Source: Ceratothoa steindachneri
Lineage: Eukaryota; Arthropoda; Malacostraca; Isopoda; Cymothoidae
Length of the DNA stretch: 64,000 nt
NCBI GenBank assembly: GCA_963969495.1
Contig: OZ018329.1
Coordinates: forward strand, 69,304,160 to 69,368,159
Direction of reading: 5' to 3'
The notes beneath the pieces are model-generated. The model saw only the letters and a program-made list of their open reading frames with translations, was not told where the DNA came from and searched no databases. Below, piece by piece: positions 3,240 to 60,894 of this stretch; positions within the stretch are counted from its first letter, which is position 1; each line of letters opens with the position of its first letter. The translations under genes were made by a program, and so were the position numbers.

Positions 3240-4190
3240 AAATACAAAAGTTTCTGACAGCTTGTCTCCTACTGAAGGTCATTGTCTTCATCACCAGCCT
3301 TCCTTTGTATATTTTCACTAAGATTAGCTTGCACAGTGATGTGAAGCCTCATCTTGTTCAAAAGTGAACTCATGTTCATTTGCAATGAATCAGCTGTGAA
3401 GTATTTGTAGATAAACATCGCCTCCTCCATTTTTATCAATGAAAAATGGGCTACACATACTATTCTTGGAAATAACGCAGAACACCTTCGCTTTTGGTTA
3501 ATTCCTTTTGTGCTCAACTGTGTCAGGAGGATTTTCTTTCTCAAATGCAAACATTATGCTTGCTGACCTTGCCATTCGTATGAAATATAGCCTCATCACT
3601 GAAAACAAGACATTCATTAAACACATCTCCTTTAAGTTTCCTTTGCATATCAACAGTTAATTGTTTGGCTTGTGCTTGTCATCTATCCCCGAGGCTTGAG
3701 CGAGCTGCAGCTGATGGGGTTTCATTTTCAAGCGTTTCCCCAGGACACACCAAACTCTAATGGAAGACTATGAATTTCGAAGATTGCTCTTCTTATGGAC
3801 TTCTTGGAGCTTCGCATAAGTTATTCGCAAACCCGCTCGACCGTGTTTTCTGATGCTGGTCGTCGTCCACATCATTTTGCCCTGCACAGACAGCTTTTCT
3901 CTTTGAACCTTTTGTGTTATGTTCAAATCTGGTTTACTGTTGGAGCATTTTAAGAGAATTTTATAACAAATGCACGCTGCACAGTATTAATCGACTGTGT
4001 TTTAGCATACTCTAACACCCAAAACGCCTTTTCTTTTTCAGTGAATGGAAATTCTATCGTGTAAAGATAAAAAAAAAATTAGACATAAAATTGTGTCGTG
4101 ATTCCACACATGCTATTAATATTTGAGGTAAATTGAACGAGTATCGAATAGATTGCAAATGATATAATTTTTTTAGAAACACCCTGTAAT
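3240..4190 (-). pseudogene. IS630/Tc-type transposase remnant (helix-turn-helix family common in arthropods), copy A
   Basis: Read on the minus strand with several frameshifts and stops, this gives a transposase N-terminus near 4060-3900 (WVLEYAKTQS, then a QRAFV helix-turn-helix stretch), a middle part near 3720-3590 (KQLTVDMQRKLK, VFSDEAIFH with the first catalytic Asp) and a later part around 3550-3270. It matches the second copy at 34757-36121 segment by segment, so both belong to one family. The outer end near 4170-4185 carries an ACACCCTGTA-like terminus resembling the terminal inverted repeat of the other copy. The 3' end of the gene, including the second and third catalytic Asp, is missing below about 3240. 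This is an inactive, 3'-truncated copy; the element's job would have been cut-and-paste transposition. Confidence 0.75.
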
Positions 4191-30060: not shown

Positions 30061-31900
30061 ATGAGTCTCTCTTTCCTTAGATGTGCATACTAATAGTTTC
30101 TTTGCTTGTATTAAACTACCATGCAACTCTGCATAAGAGATTCAGGTTTGCGGTTTTGAGTTCTAGTAGGTATTTCTCTGCATTTTAATTTGTTCTTTTA
30201 CTCCTTTCATTGTTACTCTAGTGAGTAAAAATGCCCTCGTTTCTTGCAAGTAAACTTGAAGATATCTTCGGAACAACCTAGGAAAATTGGTTTCATCGAG
30301 GGGATATTACCACAACAGCTTTTGGCGTGGCTATTTTGTTTTCACTTAGGGTTATGGTGAGCTTCCTTTTTATGATGGTTATTTATTAGTGTGTATGTAT
30401 CATGCTTCCTCCAAAGCCGCAATTTTAGCCATTTGAACGATTAAATTTATTTACAAATACTAAATAAGATATTAAAAGCGACACAAATTATAAGAGGTGC
30501 CTGATAATATTCGCTTTATTGCTGCGATGGCAGCATTGAAAGATCTTAATTACTGATGAGTTGTGGAAGTCTTGAAGAAGCATGGCTTACTTCAAACAAC
30601 GACCAGTTATCTCTCAGAAGAAGACTTCTTTCAAATTTGAATCAACCTAGTATTATTTCAATTATCTCTGAGCAACTAGTCTCCTCAATAAAGTTTTTCC
30701 TAGAAGTAAATTTGAATTCCGAAGATAGCGCATATTTAGAAACAAGTATATTATATAGCCCTTATTTATTACGGTAAAGTAGATTTATGGTCAAATAAAA
30801 AAATATATATTTTAAGGGTTTGTTTATATCTCAGCTTCAAATCCTAAACAAATTTAAAGATTTTTTGAGTTTTATGCTCGAGATTAGATTTACGACTCCC
30901 GTTTGTCTCTTTGACCAGTGAATTTAGATGTTGGCCACGTCCTTTGTTGATCTTCGCACACATTCGCTTGGGGAGCGAAGATCTGTTCGGATTTAATGGA
31001 AAGGAAGCATCCTATTCCTTATAAATCCGCATTTATACACACGGAAATGAAGATGCCGAGAGGTAAAATAAAAAAGAAAAATTAATATCCATCATAAGGA
31101 AATAAGAAAAAAATAACTGGCGTTCATAAACAGACAAAAGAGACTGTATGAGGGGGTATGAATAGATTCTCACTTGATAAATGAAAAGAACAACTTTAGG
31201 TTACTATCTAAGAGATCTTTAACTACAATAGCAAAACTAATATTCTGATCTTCAAGAAATTGGCAAAGGATCTAAAAGGATCTTTATGTTTATAGTACGG
31301 AGCCAAAGCTTATGAAAATTATAACTCTCTAATTGGGGTGGAGATTGGGTGTTGTGAGTGTACACAAGCTAGGAAAAATTAATTTTATGATGATGATAAC
31401 TTCCCCCCACCAGAGGTAAAAGATCACCGGCAATGATCATCGTGTCCTTTAAAGGACTATATTATTATGACATCCTTTAAAGTAGTTATTAAAACACGGA
31501 ATTTATCCCACATAATGAGTGTCTTCTAACGACCATTTAGGGTATACGATCCGAAAAGTTTGCAAATATAGTTAGAGTAACATCTACTCAATAACTGTTC
31601 GATGGGAAAAGCTTGAAATACGTTCTCCATTCGAACAATGTCGAAAGACTTCATGAGACTGAGACTCTAAGTTTCTTTCCCTCACTCATTATTTCTTCTC
31701 AAAATTGAAATTCGATTTCTTCGGTCCGACTTCTCAACATTGGTGACACGAGGCGAGGATGAATTTAAGGGAAAAGTACTGCACTATCCGAATCCAATAT
31801 CGGGTCGCCAAATGATAAGATTAATGATAAGGTTATCTTTTGAAGATAGTTTTTGCAACAGAGTTATATCATCTTTATGGAAATATAAAGGGATTGTACG
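30061..31900. other. presumed intronic DNA, nothing recognised
   Basis: AT-rich sequence. A 73-codon frame at 30556-30777 is rich in Leu and Ser and resembles no family I know. Confidence 0.5.
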
Positions 31901-31908
31901 TAAACGTT

Positions 31909-32335
31909 TCACCTTGTGACAAATTCGTAGGCGATGTTAGAAATCCTCACTTGTGCGGTTTTAAATAGGCCTCGTATGGGTAAGGATTTAATTCGTTGCA
32001 GTAGCGTCTCAAATGTGAAGATAAATTTAATTTTGTTCTGGGAAGTTAGGGGTAGACAAAAGTCTAATCTAAATGCTAGTAGTAGTTTCTCTCGTGAAGT
32101 TAACTGGTAGTCAGATAAGTTAAACATTACCTTTTCTGGATCTGGTAGAGTTGAAGAAGAGAGGTGCATTCGTTCGAGTTTGCGTGCATGAGTCCGTTTT
32201 ACTTTGGTTATGTAGGCTTTTACCGTACGTTGGGCGAGGGTAAGGAATGAAATATAGTCAATTAGGGAGACTTGATTTTTCAACTGGGAACCAAGTTGAG
32301 GTAGAGATTCTTGATGTCGTTTTTTTCGTTTTGCC
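31909..32335 (-). pseudogene. inverted 5' part of a Penelope-like element (N-terminal ORF region)
   Basis: The minus strand from about 32335 reads KAKRKKRHQESLPQLGSQL and runs into a 124-residue open frame (32283-31909) with the 'FNLSDYQLTSREKLLLAFRL' and DFCLPLT blocks typical of the region upstream of the reverse transcriptase in Penelope-like elements. The rest of the element is on the plus strand immediately to the right. The two halves meet head to head at about 32335. Confidence 0.7.
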
Positions 32336-33420
32336 TTGAAGTTGATTTCGTTTAATGGCCCCTTTTTTCACCAAATAGATGGCCTGGCAATGCGAAGTCC
32401 TATTAACGCCCCTCTCGCAAATCTCTTCATGTGTAACTTAGAAGAAGAAGCACTTGATAAATGCCCCTTACAATTCCGTCCTATCTTCTACAAGAGATAC
32501 GTAGACGACACCATCGCCCTTTCTGCCTCTAAAAGTTCATCTAATAAATTCCTAGAGTACATAAAACAGTTACATCCAAATATTAAATTCACTCAAGAAA
32601 AGGAAAACAACGACTCCATTCCTTTCTTAGACCTACTAATAACACGCACAACCCACGGTTTCTTCACTTCCATTCACCGAAAACCTACACATACGGGCTC
32701 TGGACTCCATTTTCTTAGTCATTGTTCCACCAAAATCAAATTAAACTTTATCAAAACCTTATTTTTTCGCGCTTACAATCTCTCCACATCATACCTCAAT
32801 TTCCATAACGACATTAATTTCCTCACTAACTATTTCCAACAAATAGTACGACGGAACTCTTCGAAATTATATCAATAAAATATTTACCCCGAAAGATCCC
32901 TCATACAACGTGCCTAAAGAAAAGGTTTTTGTACCTCTCCCATATATAGGACCCCTCAATTCACTTCTCTGGGCCAAACTCTCACCGTTTCTTAAGAATT
33001 CATTTCCTAAAACACATTTTATGCCAATTTTTCAAAACACACGCAAAGTACAACATCTTTTCAACATTAAAGACAAAATAACAACGCTAATTCGATCCTC
33101 CATCATATATGAATTCAACTGCTTGAGATGTAATTCCGAGGTGTATTTAGGATCGACACAGCGCACACTACATACCCATAACATTTAGGCATCAGCAATA
33201 GAAGTGGAGCCCCCACTCACTACTCCCGAATTCTCCCCTACGCAAATACACTATGAAAACAGACATCCACACCATAAACCAAACTTAAATAATTTTTCAA
33301 TTAAAGACCCAGAAAACAATGAAAACCAACTACGTACACTGGAATCTCTTTATATTAGATTTAAAAAACCCACTTTAGACTCTGACACAAGCTCATTTCC
33401 ACTTTTACTACAACTATAAT
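32335..33420 (+). pseudogene. Penelope-like reverse transcriptase and GIY-YIG endonuclease
   Basis: Frame 32336-32878 gives the reverse transcriptase: FHQIDGLAMRSPINAPLANL (normally QxDGxAMGSPLxP; the Gly after Met is Arg here), FYKRYVDDTIAL (catalytic YVDD intact), ENNDSIPFLDLLI and RKPTHTGSGLHFLS, then the thumb. The next frame (32910-33188) leads to IIYEFNCLRCNSEVYLGST, the GIY-YIG core with its Cys pair. The last frame (33204-33419) holds the ESLYIRFKKPTL C-terminus. Three frames and a stop make it dead. Active elements copy RNA to DNA at a nick made by the GIY-YIG domain. Confidence 0.9.
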
Positions 33421-33707
33421 CACCCACGAATCAAACACACCAAATCCACTTCCCCAAAACAACCCCTATCTTTCAAATATTTCTATTATCCCCCCCTTTT
33501 TACAATGAAGACACCCAAAACTAATTAATCTCAGTTTTATTCAAAAACAAAAACATATTTCCTATTCCCTAATAGTTAAAAGCCCTGCATTTTTATAATT
33601 TGGATATTACCACCTCTGGTGCTTCCCATTTCCCATATAATTAATTTATAAATATCTGATAACTTATCTATAAAATTCTTATGTTTGTATATATTTATAA
33701 TCTCACA

Positions 33708-33740
33708 TCCTTGAGAATGGGTTCCTACCCGAAACGTTGG
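33708..33740 (+). ncRNA. hammerhead-ribozyme-like motif at the Penelope-like 3' end
   Basis: A CUUGAGA-type box, a 4-bp stem (GGGU/ACCC) and a GAAAC box in the order of hammerhead stem II. It lies about 290 bp past the GIY-YIG frame. The CUGANGA core has two changes, so activity is doubtful. Ribozymes of this kind are known in Penelope-like elements. Confidence 0.45.
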
Positions 33741-33844
33741 TACCAAGAAGTTATAATATAGTAATGAACTTCCTAAATTTAGCCTGCTTATTTATCCTAA
33801 AAATACGTATACGCCTGGCAACGCGCAACCCCTCTGCTCTCTTA

Positions 33845-33845
<1 letters not shown>

Positions 33846-33889
<44 letters not shown>
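33846..33889. repeat. (AT)n microsatellite
   Basis: About 44 bases of alternating AT to the left of the long hairpin. Confidence 0.97.
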
Positions 33890-33891
<2 letters not shown>

Positions 33892-33892
33892 A

Positions 33893-34058
33893 GAAATAAT
33901 AAGAATTCTTTAATCTGCTATAAAAAACTCCTGGAGTTCCTCAACCATGTTCAGGAGGAGCGTTACATATACGACTAGTCGCAGGTGAAACACTCCTAAA
34001 GAAGATTGAGGAACTCTAGGAGACTTTTCTAGCAGATTAAGGAATTCTTATTATTACC
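33893..34058. repeat. long inverted repeat (foldback), arms about 70 bp
   Basis: The left arm 33893-33964 and right arm 33989-34058 are reverse complements with roughly 85% identity over their whole length (for example AATAAGAATTCTTTAATCTG against AATAAGAATTCCTTAATCTG). The spacer is about 24 bp. It is bracketed by (AT)n tracts. Confidence 0.9.
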
Positions 34059-34102
34059 CTTACCTAACCGCATTGACTAGAACTTTATTTCTCACTTATC
34101 AA

Positions 34103-34188: not shown

Positions 34189-34191
<3 letters not shown>

Positions 34192-34254
34192 AAGAAGTAC
34201 AGTAATGTTCATGTAAATGCAGGAAAGAAATCATAGTGATAGGATCGATTTATT

Positions 34255-34530
34255 TGTGAAACCAGGTTTCGACGGAGACATCCGTCCGTCATCTTTAATC
34301 GTTGATAAGCTAATGAATACATGGAGATGCTTAGCCTACGGACACACAAATTTACAAGTCGCAATATAATTAATGGGGGCAGTATGGGGGAGCAGTGGCA
34401 TTTTTGAGCAGAGGAGGACGAATCTTCTGTTTATCAAGGGATTAGTGTTTAATTGCCCATCAGAAATACTAAAGTTTGGAATTTCCTTTATAAGAACTGA
34501 TTCTATTAAACGCTTATGTATATAGTTGAG
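34255..34530 (-). pseudogene. C-terminal fragment of a second Penelope-like element
   Basis: The minus strand reads RLIESVLIKEIPNFSISDGQ and then LNTNPLINRRF (34520-34430), a typical Penelope-like C-terminus (ESxxI...N.S.GQ..LNP). It ends in the hammerhead-like motif (34263-34300) and an (AT)n tract. No reverse transcriptase is attached; the IS630/Tc-type element copy B lies upstream. Confidence 0.6.
34263..34305 (-). ncRNA. hammerhead-ribozyme-like motif
   Basis: On the minus strand: UUAAAGA box, a perfect 6-bp stem GACGGA/UCCGUC with a short loop, then GAAAC. The conserved CUGANGA core is degraded at two or more positions. It is followed by an AATAAA-like string, as in the other copies. 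Confidence 0.45.
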
Positions 34531-34756
34531 AGAATTATAAATTATTTTTTCATATCAATGTCAATTGACTGGTTTTCATTTGAGATGTGTAGGAACAGGC
34601 TAGAAGGTAGGTACCACGGCCCCTGTCGCATTTGTGTTTCTTCATTCTTTTTAAGAATCTGCTGCTTTCTTGATGTCAAAATATCTAAAGTAAACAACAA
34701 AGCATATTGTTCTGTTTGCAGGAAACCTACGAACTCTATTGCCTATATTCACTATT

Positions 34757-36121
34757 ACCGGGTGTTTAAAAAATTCGAAATCATCTGAGATGTAAATATC
34801 ACAGAAACTTCATAGTCAAGGCAAATGAAACTAAACAGGCTTAATGTTAAGCAACATAAGATTTATTCCTCTAAACTTGAACGAGAAAATCAAAGGCATG
34901 TGGATTCCATGAACGATTTCACAAATGTTCAATATGAGTACCGCTTGAGACACGGCACATGTCAAGTCGGTTGTCCAGCTCCTCCTAAACAGGCTGCAGC
35001 ATGTCTTTGGTAACAGTCTCCAGTGCGGTAGTGATTCTTAGCTTGAGTTCCTCTAGGTTTGCAGAAAGAGGCGAGACATAGACCAATCCCTTCACATAGC
35101 CCCAGCGAAAAAGGCGCAAAGTGTCAGATCAGGTGAACGTGGCGGCCATTTCAACAGCACATTGTCTTAATCACCAGCACGCCCGATCCATCTCCCTCGC
35201 AGATTGACATTGAGATAAGCTCGCACAGTGAGCTTCCAGTGAGGTGGAGCCCCGTTCTGTTGAAAAATGAAGTCTTCTTGTTCATTTGCAATGAGCACAT
35301 CCATTGTCCAGTTCTGAAGCATTTGCACATAAACATGGCCAGTCACATTTCCCTCAGAGAAAAATGGGCCATGAAGATGGTTTTTGGAGATGGCGCAGAA
35401 GCCATTCACTTCCAGTGAGTCCCTCATGTGTTCAATTGTGGCATGGGAATTTTCTTTTGACCCAAATGCGAACATTATGCTTATTGACTTACCCATTCGT
35501 ATGAAATGCGGCCTCATCACTGAAAACAAGACGTTCCTTGAACTAGTGTTCTTCAAGTTTCTCTTGCATATCAACACAGGATTGTTGGCGCTTTTGCTTG
35601 TCATCTGCTTTACGGCCTGACTAGCTGCAGCTTGTGGGGTTTCATTAGCAAGCGTTTCCTCAGGACGCGCCAAACTGTCGTTGGAGGAATCTGGGTTTCC
35701 ATACTTGTTCTTCTTATGGACTTCTTGGGGCTTCGCAAAGGATTTTTGCGAACCCGCTCGACCATCTCTTCCGATGTTATTGGTCGTCTAGATCATTTTT
35801 CCCTGCACAGAAGGACTTCTTCTTTGAATTTGTTTGTGCCATGTCCAAATCTGCATTGCCGTTGGTGACTGTTTAGAGAACTCTTTCACAAATGCACGCT
35901 GCACAGTCTTTTTCGACTGTGTTCGAGCATACTCCAACACACAAAACACCTTTTCACTTCCAGTGAATGGCATTTCTATACTAGTAAAGATAAAAACATC
36001 AAACATTTAAAATAAAACCTTGACCTGTTTCTACACATGGTGTTAAAATTTTAGGCCATTTGAACGGGAACTGGTAAATTTATTAGATTACAAAATTATA
36101 TCAATTTTTTTAAACACCCAA
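34757..36121 (-). pseudogene. IS630/Tc-type transposase element, copy B (near full length)
   Basis: Terminal inverted repeats: CGGGTGTTTAAAAAATTCGA at the left and the complement TGGGTGTTTAAAAAAATTGA at the right. The minus strand reads CVLEYARTQSKKTVQRAFV and KQSPTAMQIWTWH (helix-turn-helix; 35950-35830), then a 168-residue open frame (35673-35167) with SVMRPHFIRMG, FFSEGNVTGHVYVQML and FIFQQNGAPPHWKLTVRAYL. The second catalytic position is Asn in QQNG, where relatives have Asp. Then come WPPRSPDLT (third Asp) and the end DDFEFFKHPV at the left repeat. Two or three frameshifts; inactive. Same family and strand as 3240-4190. Confidence 0.85.

Positions 36122-58905: not shown

Positions 58906-58910
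<5 letters not shown>
58798..58910. repeat. long inverted repeat (foldback), arms about 50 bp
   Basis: The left arm 58798-58848 and right arm 58858-58910 pair with few mismatches. The inner 18 bp (ATTCCAAGTACTTTCGAA and complement) are perfect. The loop is 9 bp. It is flanked by (AT)n tracts, as is the hairpin at 33893-34058. Confidence 0.93.

Positions 58911-58979
<69 letters not shown>
58909..58979. repeat. (AT)n microsatellite
   Basis: About 71 bases of alternating AT between the hairpin and the 3' end of the minus-strand Penelope-like element. Ile/Tyr frames here are artefacts. Confidence 0.97.
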
Positions 58980-58981
<2 letters not shown>

Positions 58982-59035
58982 GAGTGAATCCAACAACCAA
59001 AAAGAAGGTAGTTTCCATTAAACTTATTCTTTAAT

Positions 59036-59070
59036 GACAACCTTTCAGGCTCTAAGCTTATCATCAGTTC
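59036..59070 (-). ncRNA. hammerhead-ribozyme-like motif
   Basis: On the minus strand an exact CUGAUGA box and an exact GAAA box are separated by a weak stem (AAGC..GCCU with one mismatch), followed by GGUUGUC and an AATAA-like string. The best core match in the window, but stem II is damaged. Confidence 0.5.
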
Positions 59071-59279
59071 TGACAAAGAGAAAAGAAGAAATATTTAAAT
59101 TCTAACATATTAATTATTGGTATAAAGTGAAAATTCAAATCAGATAGACAAAATATCATTTAAATGGGGAAGACTAGGGAGAGAAAGGGGACGGAGCATG
59201 TAATTTACACGGTTGAGCCGTGAGGAAAACTCAACTGAATAAGTTAAGGAAGGGGGGACAGGAAGTAAGCGTGGTGGAT

Positions 59280-60035
59280 GGGGGAGTGGTTAAACTAGGA
59301 GGAGGGAAACCACACTTGTGTCGTTATCAAGGTGAAGTTTTAAAATTTTAATACACATAGACACTAAGATACGAAGGGAGATTTCATTTTTGCAATGTTC
59401 AAGGATTTTAAAATTTTCATGAGTGACATCAGTTTTACATTGTATAATGTGATGAGATCTTATGGCTAATATTGCTTTATGGTTCAAAGGTTTGCCAGTA
59501 ATATTGCTAATACACATGTGAGAACACACCCTGGCCTTCACAGAACGAGCAGTACTGCTTATATATGAGCCTCGATCACAGCGAGGACAAATGAACCGAT
59601 AAACTAGGCAGCTACGTAAGTTCTGAGGGAGTGTGTCCTTTACATTGAATATTGAATCAATTGATAAATTACGGTGAAGATTATTTTAAAATGGATGTTA
59701 ATGAAATATTGTTGGAGGAGTCTTAATAGTTATTTGTGGAAAGAGCGGTTAAGAGAAACTAAGTGTGGTAAAGATACATAGAGAGAGTGTTTGGGGGCGG
59801 TACTAATAGGTAACCTTGGCTCATATTGCTGGTATAAGAATTTCTTAAATATCTTATTGTATAAATTACTGGGATAACAGTTATTTTTGAAAAAAATACA
59901 AAGAAAGTCATATTCTCTATGGAGAGAAGAATAGGTTGAGTATAAGTGATAAGCACGGTAAAAAAGTGTGTATATAGAATTGATTTTGAAGAGTGCATCG
60001 CCTAAACTGAAAAATTTGAGTCCTAGGCCATTGAA
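59280..60035 (-). pseudogene. 3' half of a Penelope-like element (thumb and GIY-YIG)
   Basis: The minus strand starts at about 60035 with NGLGLKFFSLGDALFKINS, then YRAYHLYSTYSSLHREYDFL and FFKNNCYPSNLYNK (reverse-transcriptase thumb region). It continues to VYRFICPRCDRGSYISSTAR (GIY-YIG core; about 59610-59545) and the C-terminus FKILEHCKNEISLRILVSM. Frameshifts separate the blocks. The catalytic palm is not here but on the plus strand immediately to the right; the junction is at about 60036. Confidence 0.85.
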
Positions 60036-60036
60036 G

Positions 60037-60430
60037 TTAGGTTTTTACCAACATACCCATCAATGAAGTAATAGATATTATTCTTAGAGAAGCGTTTGCT
60101 AACTCGGACCTTTTCAATGGTTTTACCCGTTAAACAGTCACTACAACTCGTATTTAAAGACAGCTCTTTCCTTTTCAACAATAGTGTTTTCCAACAAATT
60201 GATGGTGTACGTATGGGTTCCCCCATTGCTCCCATCGCTGCCGACATTTTCATAGAAAACATGGAAGAACTGATTTTTAATAGCTGCCCTAAACGTTTGC
60301 TTCACTTTTTTACCTCCGCTTTGTTGAGGACTGCTTCGCCATATTTCATAACAAAGATCAAGCAAGCAGTTTTTTAGAGTTTATCAAGCCTGTGAAGGGC
60401 CAAAGCACTATTTGTATATCCCTTAGATAC
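60037..60430 (+). pseudogene. inverted 5' part of the same Penelope-like element (reverse transcriptase palm)
   Basis: The plus strand starts VFTNIPINEVIDIILREAFA and continues to FQQIDGVRMGSPIAPIAADI and FIENMEELIFNS (motifs around the first catalytic Asp and the QxDGxxMGSP block). It runs on to 'FLEFIKPVKG' near 60375-60400. The YxDD site is decayed (EDCF-like). Gag-like or GIY-YIG sequences do not follow; they are in the minus-strand half on the left. Confidence 0.85.
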
Positions 60431-60717
60431 TGCAACATCAAAATGTAAATATTAGCCCTGGTTTGTTTTCTTTAGATCCAGTCCTCTCTTTCCTTCTCAA
60501 ATCAGACTTATCAGAGGTCATAAAGAATCTGACTTATAGGGAAAACGTTGCTTTCTATAAATACGGTGTCTCTATTTTATAAACCATTGTGAGTTTGAAA
60601 ATGTTATTAAGATAACGAAAGTGCTTGTCCAATCAATCTTTCATTTTTCCTACGTGGTACAGCCAAATATTTATACTTATTCAGGTGTTCCCTCTCGTGG
60701 TACTACGGCATACTTTT

Positions 60718-60785
60718 AACTGTGATCAAAGCGGTGCTCGCTGCCTCAGTGTCCATGGTTCGAATCGCTTCCCTGCACGAATTTT
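60718..60785 (+). repeat. tRNA-like SINE head candidate
   Basis: 'GTGATCAAAGCGGTGCTCGC' followed by 'TGTCCATGGTTCGAATCGC', which holds a perfect Pol III B box (GGTTCGAATC at about 60765-60774). The A box is poor and no cloverleaf closes, so this is not a functional tRNA gene. Confidence 0.3.
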
Positions 60786-60894
60786 TACGAAAAAAGGTAA
60801 TAAATATTACTGTAAGAAAAAAAATTATTCCGTTTTCTCTTTCAATGTGGTTTATTGCATTCATCTTCATTATTCTCTCGCGCTACTTTGAGAG

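Follow-up and report, generated by a model that had tools for sequence, protein, structure and literature searches.

A head-to-head Penelope-like element in the isopod Ceratothoa steindachneri and its probable origin by priming from both target strands

Introduction

How can a single retroelement come to lie in a genome with its two parts facing in opposite directions? The question is raised by a Penelope-like element (PLE) on contig OZ018329.1 of Ceratothoa steindachneri (assembly GCA_963969495.1), within a stretch of 64,000 nucleotides (nt; positions 69,304,160 to 69,368,159 of the forward strand), which we call the window and whose coordinates are used below. A first-pass annotation, made from the sequence alone, had assigned the N-terminal part of such an element to the minus strand and the part from reverse transcriptase through GIY-YIG to the plus strand; it had also noted another copy of this topology at 60 kb and proposed a repeated mechanism. 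We refer to the two as copy A and copy B. As to how PLEs insert, the authors of PMC11167929 leave the later steps to be validated (articles are cited here by PMC accession). Our analysis suggests that copy A is probably one PLE insertion for which both target strands primed reverse transcription, i.e., a product of twin priming.

Structure of copy A

Copy A was resolved as a single decayed PLE at 31822-33846, with its 5′ part flipped head-to-head against the remainder. Positions within the element are given on a ruler (R), the family copy L041 from the same genome, and protein positions refer to P0001, a full-length PLE homologue of 829 amino acids (777 homologues were found, 120 of them listed). 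The features are as follows.

31822..32352, minus strand: inverted 5′ piece, N-terminal coding part (R2604-3135), itself 5′-truncated; 93% to L041 by blastn, P0001 residues 97-238 by tblastn
32348..32352, no strand: head-to-head junction, 5 nt of microhomology where both DNA alignments overlap
32348..33846, plus strand: direct 3′ piece, from the reverse transcriptase part to the C-terminus, 3′ untranslated region (UTR) and terminal repeat (pLTR); 90% to L041 by blastn, residues 471-826 by tblastn
33576..33846, plus strand: pLTR at the 3′ end, matching L041 R2141-2397 and ending at site 1, ..CTCTGCTCTCTTAAG
33847..33889, no strand: (TA)n array abutting the 3′ end

At the protein level, the minus strand from 32349 down to 31924 corresponds to P0001 residues 97-238 (36%, E 2e-23, tblastn) and the plus strand from 32351 to 33404 to residues 471-826 (E 2e-71, tblastn), with a gap of one base between the two alignments. 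At the DNA level, 31822-32352 on the minus strand matches R3135..R2604, while 32348-33656 on the plus strand matches R3729-5060 and is followed by pLTR R2141-2397 up to 33846; 594 ruler nt (R3135 to R3729) are missing between the pieces, and the inverted piece begins near residue 97. The annotated arrangement was borne out at both levels, and with 93% and 90% to one and the same copy both parts belong to one family, as had been proposed, the inverted portion aligning to no different family. The topology could be kept, but the limits had to be moved from 31909-33745 to 31822-33846 and the junction from about 32335 to 32348-32352. At the left edge, homology breaks off abruptly at 31822-31824 in five of five DNA comparisons, and a protein match apparently extending to 31787 was rejected on this ground. 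Alignments with lenient gap costs and an unmasked TA comparison were uninformative and were replaced by other alignments.

The assignment to PLEs is supported by a hidden Markov model (HMM) of PLE homologues, which matches 32315-32875 (E 5e-70), and by the C-terminal part, which aligns up to the end of PLE proteins (tblastn, HMM). With Pfam RVT_1 alone, copy A stays under the cut-off (14.6 bits vs 29.6) and P0001 exceeds it (41.4). L041 R2141-2221 repeats R4980-5060 at 81%, and copy A bears this pLTR at its 3′ end. Pfam gave no GIY-YIG match in copy A, copy B's piece or P0001; one PLE homologue, P0077, carries PF01541, which we take to be GIY-YIG. Hammerhead-ribozyme-like stretches were recognised by eye at 33710-33736 and, on the minus strand, at 59043-59067, and Rfam searches reported no hammerhead ribozyme; such ribozymes are reported for PLEs (PMC11167929).

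Relatives of copy A in the host genome

The host genome (3.93 Gb, 529 contigs) yielded 48,646 first-look candidates for the reverse transcriptase piece, 150 of which were scored. Ranks 2-38 of the scored matches provided a sample of 35 loci of copy A's family (27 plus 8 later), excluding rank 7 (judged from its equal scores to nearly duplicate rank 6) and rank 13 (the ruler L041). These are the best-scoring, well-preserved matches of one family, and the fractions given here are not genome frequencies.

Fifteen of the 35 loci carried an inverted piece at the 5′ head, with varied breakpoints (L024, L026, L027, L028, L030, L031, L032, L034, L039, L044, L045, L046, L054, L055 and L060; that of L027, about 25 nt long, was recognised by motif). 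Another 19 were plain direct copies, 7 of them with the head 0-7 nt from a TA array, and L038, with an inverted piece on the tail side, was counted in neither class. Counting copy A there are 16 composites, and their direct pieces have 16 different starts on the ruler, between R2262 and R3729; the starts of L060 and copy A, 4 nt apart, and of L024 and L026, 9 nt apart, are separated by distances near the alignment error, but their inverted pieces differ. Hence, the annotation's expectation of varied breakpoints under a recurrent topology held in this sample, and the copies do not share exact breakpoints. Its proposal of a repeated mechanism is sustained by the recurrence and by the 16 starts, but without support for copies A and B as representatives of the genome, since direct copies are commoner in the sample and the inverted pieces of all 15 composite relatives end in the pLTR and not internally. 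Similarly, its count of two inverted copies out of two is correct for the window copies with substantial coding sequence and untypical of the sample, where 19 of 35 are direct.

In another search of the genome, 16 of its 150 scored matches lie on one strand of contig C4 at ~218.94-219.03 Mb, many of them ~4.3-4.4 kb apart, as a tandem array of PLEs in head-to-tail order.

Copy B at 60 kb

Copy B represents a PLE family different from that of copy A, seen in three copies only (two relatives were fetched), and shows the same head-to-head topology with other breakpoints, in agreement with the annotated difference in breakpoint. It comprises the following pieces.

60044..60391, plus strand: inverted 5′ piece; 86% to L052 1272-1633 and 90% to L051 1436-1687, with tblastn reaching 60394
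58979..60045, minus strand: direct 3′ piece; 85% to L052 1748-2775, ending at a (TA)n array at 58909-58978

In DNA, the inverted piece reaches 60387-60391 on the right, about 115 nt are absent between the pieces, and at the junction the DNA alignments overlap by 2 nt and the protein alignments by 4. The outer flank was considered as the element's own 3′ UTR and rejected (score 19 vs a shuffle maximum of 22.5). Past the inverted piece lie two repeats. The first, at 60441-60653, is also present in L060; the second, at 60701-60890, is SINE-like by eye, has TA after it and occurs in L029, L042 and L044 too.

Outer ends and TA arrays

All 15 composites have the far end of their inverted piece inside the pLTR (R2211-2397), and 11 have it at most ~5 nt from a (TA)n array of at least 12 nt (binomial P 1.4e-13 at a 3.6% background; with 5-nt margins, such arrays account for 0.9% of the window and, counting those that flank PLEs, for 3.6% of the 8-kb loci, and the higher figure was used). 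In eight of the 15, the far end coincides, exactly or to within a few nt, with a site that also terminates direct copies: site 1, ..CTCTGCTCTCTTAAG, in L026, L027, L031 and L055, and site 2, ..GCTTATTTATC(CTA), in L024, L032, L034 and L044. A third site, ..CCCATATAATTAATT, is common to L030 and L046 and was not observed at direct ends. Sites 1 and 2 occur together, one per arm, in L024, L026, L031, L034 and L044. Shared far-end sites in the pLTR together with TA adjacency are what complementary DNA (cDNA) primed from both target strands predicts.

The direct 3′ ends had TA within a few bases in 19 of 23 cases (none at L023, L030, L042 and L047; the list excludes L027, L038, L039, L046 and L053-L060). 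Among 14 direct copies with both ends in view, TA was present at the 3′ end only in seven, at both ends in four, at the head only in one and at neither in two, so the arrays may be target, added tail, or both. The direct 3′ end of copy A lies at site 1 (33832-33846) and is followed by TA, as in its relatives.

Long TA arrays are hard to assemble and the junctions are known from the assembly alone, which could suggest an assembly error, or otherwise a later genomic inversion. Nevertheless, one topology with varied breakpoints recurs in 16 composites of one family and in copy B, and several outer ends repeat exact stop sites, making such an origin extremely improbable. Self-priming by fold-back of one nucleic acid strand, as argued in PMC3846280 for the PLEs of Adineta vaga on an antisense template, would likewise make a head-to-head repeat, and short local fold-backs do occur at the junctions of L032 and L060. 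However, it predicts the same start position for both arms, whereas the arms start at different positions in most composites (R2604/R3729 in copy A, R2237/R2902 in L024, R4275/~R3697 in L044), and we regard it as highly unlikely here.

The inverted pieces of L024, L031, L045 and L060 stop at R2230-2237, by eye ~20 nt downstream of a TATAAAT stretch, and this position is possibly the RNA 5′ end.

Junctions and arm identity

No TA array of at least 12 nt was found between the heads in any of the 15 composites. Microhomology at the junctions averaged 1.83 nt, compared with 0.58 nt for simulated joins (P 1e-4; measured at 12 of 16 junctions, with L027, L054, L055 and L060 excluded here and from arm identity). 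Inverted neighbours occurred on the head side in 12 cases and on the tail side in one (27 loci, P 0.003). The two arms of L044 share 98.7% identity, against a maximum of 95.7% with other copies, and in L028 and L031 the closest relative of an arm is also its own other arm.

These observations bear on a chance origin, namely two independent PLE insertions side by side in opposite orientation. On the one hand, PLEs are very numerous, as the first-look candidates show, they end at TA arrays, and in 8 of 11 tested composites the arms are no more alike than unrelated copies. On the other hand, independent insertions into a TA array should leave TA between the heads and should produce tail-side neighbours as frequently as head-side ones, and the 3′ end, which an independent insertion keeps, is missing from the inverted piece of copy A. 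Considering also the identity of the L044 arms, this origin is already disfavoured and appears very unlikely. By contrast, outward 3′-type ends without TA between the heads, as found in all 15 composites, are expected when cDNA is primed by the two strands of a cut target and the products are then joined.

In 6 of the 15 composites (L028, L030, L032, L039, L044 and L046), the inverted arm repeats sequence that is also in the direct arm. One pass over a single-copy RNA cannot yield sequence shared by both arms; a tandem RNA could, and tandem RNA has been suggested for the Anolis element (PMC11167929).

Mode of insertion

Under priming from both target strands, one target strand of copy A would prime at the regular start site within the 3′ pLTR, giving a direct piece up to R3729, while the other would prime inside the RNA near R3135 and be copied to R2604, giving the inverted piece. 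The two cDNA ends would then be joined head-to-head through the 5 nt of microhomology, with loss of the intervening sequence. The order of the pieces conforms to twin priming in both window copies, the inverted far end lying upstream of the direct start (R3135 and R3729 in copy A; the same order, element-wise, in copy B). In the commoner two-strand event of copy A's family, both cDNAs would start at pLTR start sites (dual priming), in keeping with the sampled composites, whose far ends lie at site 1 or 2 in 8 and at site 3 in 2 of 15; the internal far end of copy A does not conform to it. We infer that each composite represents one event, that the target strands served as primers and that the outer edge of copy A is a priming site and no later break.

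Alternatively, copy A could have started out as a dual-primed composite of the kind usual in its family, whose outer ends both lay at the pLTR, and could later have lost the outer part of the inverted arm and its TA flank by deletion. The pLTR far ends of all 15 composite relatives, the four among them already without TA there, and the age of copy A (90-93% to L041) are compatible with this, and since the left flank of copy A has no copy among the fetched loci, a longer arm may have been lost in part. Conversely, in both window copies the inverted piece ends, in element order, shortly before the direct start, as twin priming requires, with a gap of ~115 nt in copy B, and a 9-nt near-repeat, AATGATAAG, is found at the outer edge of copy A in flank and element alike. 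This near-repeat fits priming by short complementarity and may also be chance. Overall, we consider a later deletion rather unlikely, though the most plausible of the alternatives.

Several findings weigh against priming from both target strands. Far ends lie at none of the three sites in 5 of the 15 composites (L028, L039, L045, L054 and L060), and TA is missing at the far end in 4 of 15. The outer left flank of copy A is not TA, and none of its 15 family composites shares its internal far end. No firm target-site duplication was found at copy A; a weak candidate is the 6-nt ATAAGA, which stands by the left edge and again where the TA array ends on the right, and a genuine duplication would make the TA part of the insertion. 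Indels leave four of the 12 measured junctions poorly registered, and the arms of 8 of the 11 tested composites are not each other's closest kin, which is to be expected of old copies from a single source but yields no support either.

Taken together, it is likely that two-strand target-primed reverse transcription is a routine way of integration for PLEs here, in which both strands of an AT-rich site prime cDNA at shared pLTR start sites and microhomology joins the two products head-to-head. This would explain the inverted-pLTR structures of Penelope elements, with copies A and B as a variant in which the second strand primed inside the RNA.

Neighbouring features of the window

A third apparent head-to-head PLE in the window, at 34190-34790, was dropped, as 34190-34645 is contiguous in L027 and L033 and is therefore a shared arrangement and no independent event. 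This region contains a PLE-like fragment on the plus strand at 34666-34755 (HMM E 1.6e-4), and an apparent 3′ end on the minus strand lies against the TA region next to copy A. Beside the 3′ end of copy A, a hairpin at 33888-34062 lies between two TA arrays, with 70-nt arms that are 84% complementary; half of it also precedes the L041 pLTR (R2056-2143, ~75%), and its only Rfam match is MIR395, sub-threshold (34.5 bits vs 56). The window repeats at 35237-36119 and 3334-4184 are two copies of one repeat, 74% alike, and the first is overlapped by an open reading frame on the minus strand (35167-35787), transposase-like by eye and with no Pfam match above the cut-off.

Comparison with known systems

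Head-to-head PLEs and in vitro extension of both strands are already in print; in our searches of open papers we did not find the link between them through genomic copies. Inverted pLTRs and 3′ extensions are also noted for PLEs in a curation guide (PMC8969392), and PMC12910113 deals with Penelope abundance and activity and not with head-to-head structure.

In Adineta vaga, whose Penelope elements are likewise PLEs in head-to-head arrangement and carry a GIY-YIG endonuclease, head-to-head inverted pLTRs are called the most frequent arrangement, self-priming on an antisense template was suggested, and two Pen3 copies have their 5′ and 3′ parts in inverted orientation (PMC3846280). There, however, palindromes occur at the junction, whereas here the arms start at different element positions and the outer ends repeat start sites beside TA.

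The purified Poseidon PLE protein of Anolis (PAc) cuts and extends both strands at AT-rich DNA in vitro, its start sites are the same on both strands, and two start sites explain the optional 'tail' (PMC11167929). Both-strand extension, start sites and AT-rich targets would match the copies described here, but joined head-to-head products were not shown in that paper, the start site there is in an AC-rich stem loop inside the start of the open reading frame, and our evidence is genomic only. Copies A and B and the composites look like the predicted genomic product of both-strand extension, and their base-level traces (start sites, junctions and TA flanks) make the model countable in any PLE-bearing genome.

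For LINE-1 (L1), dual priming has been proposed without proof (PMC2837659). Copies A and B have a twin-priming structure and the 15 relatives resemble the proposed dual-priming structure, with the difference that the element here is a PLE and that microhomology is in excess; the composites may also be natural examples of the dual priming proposed for L1.
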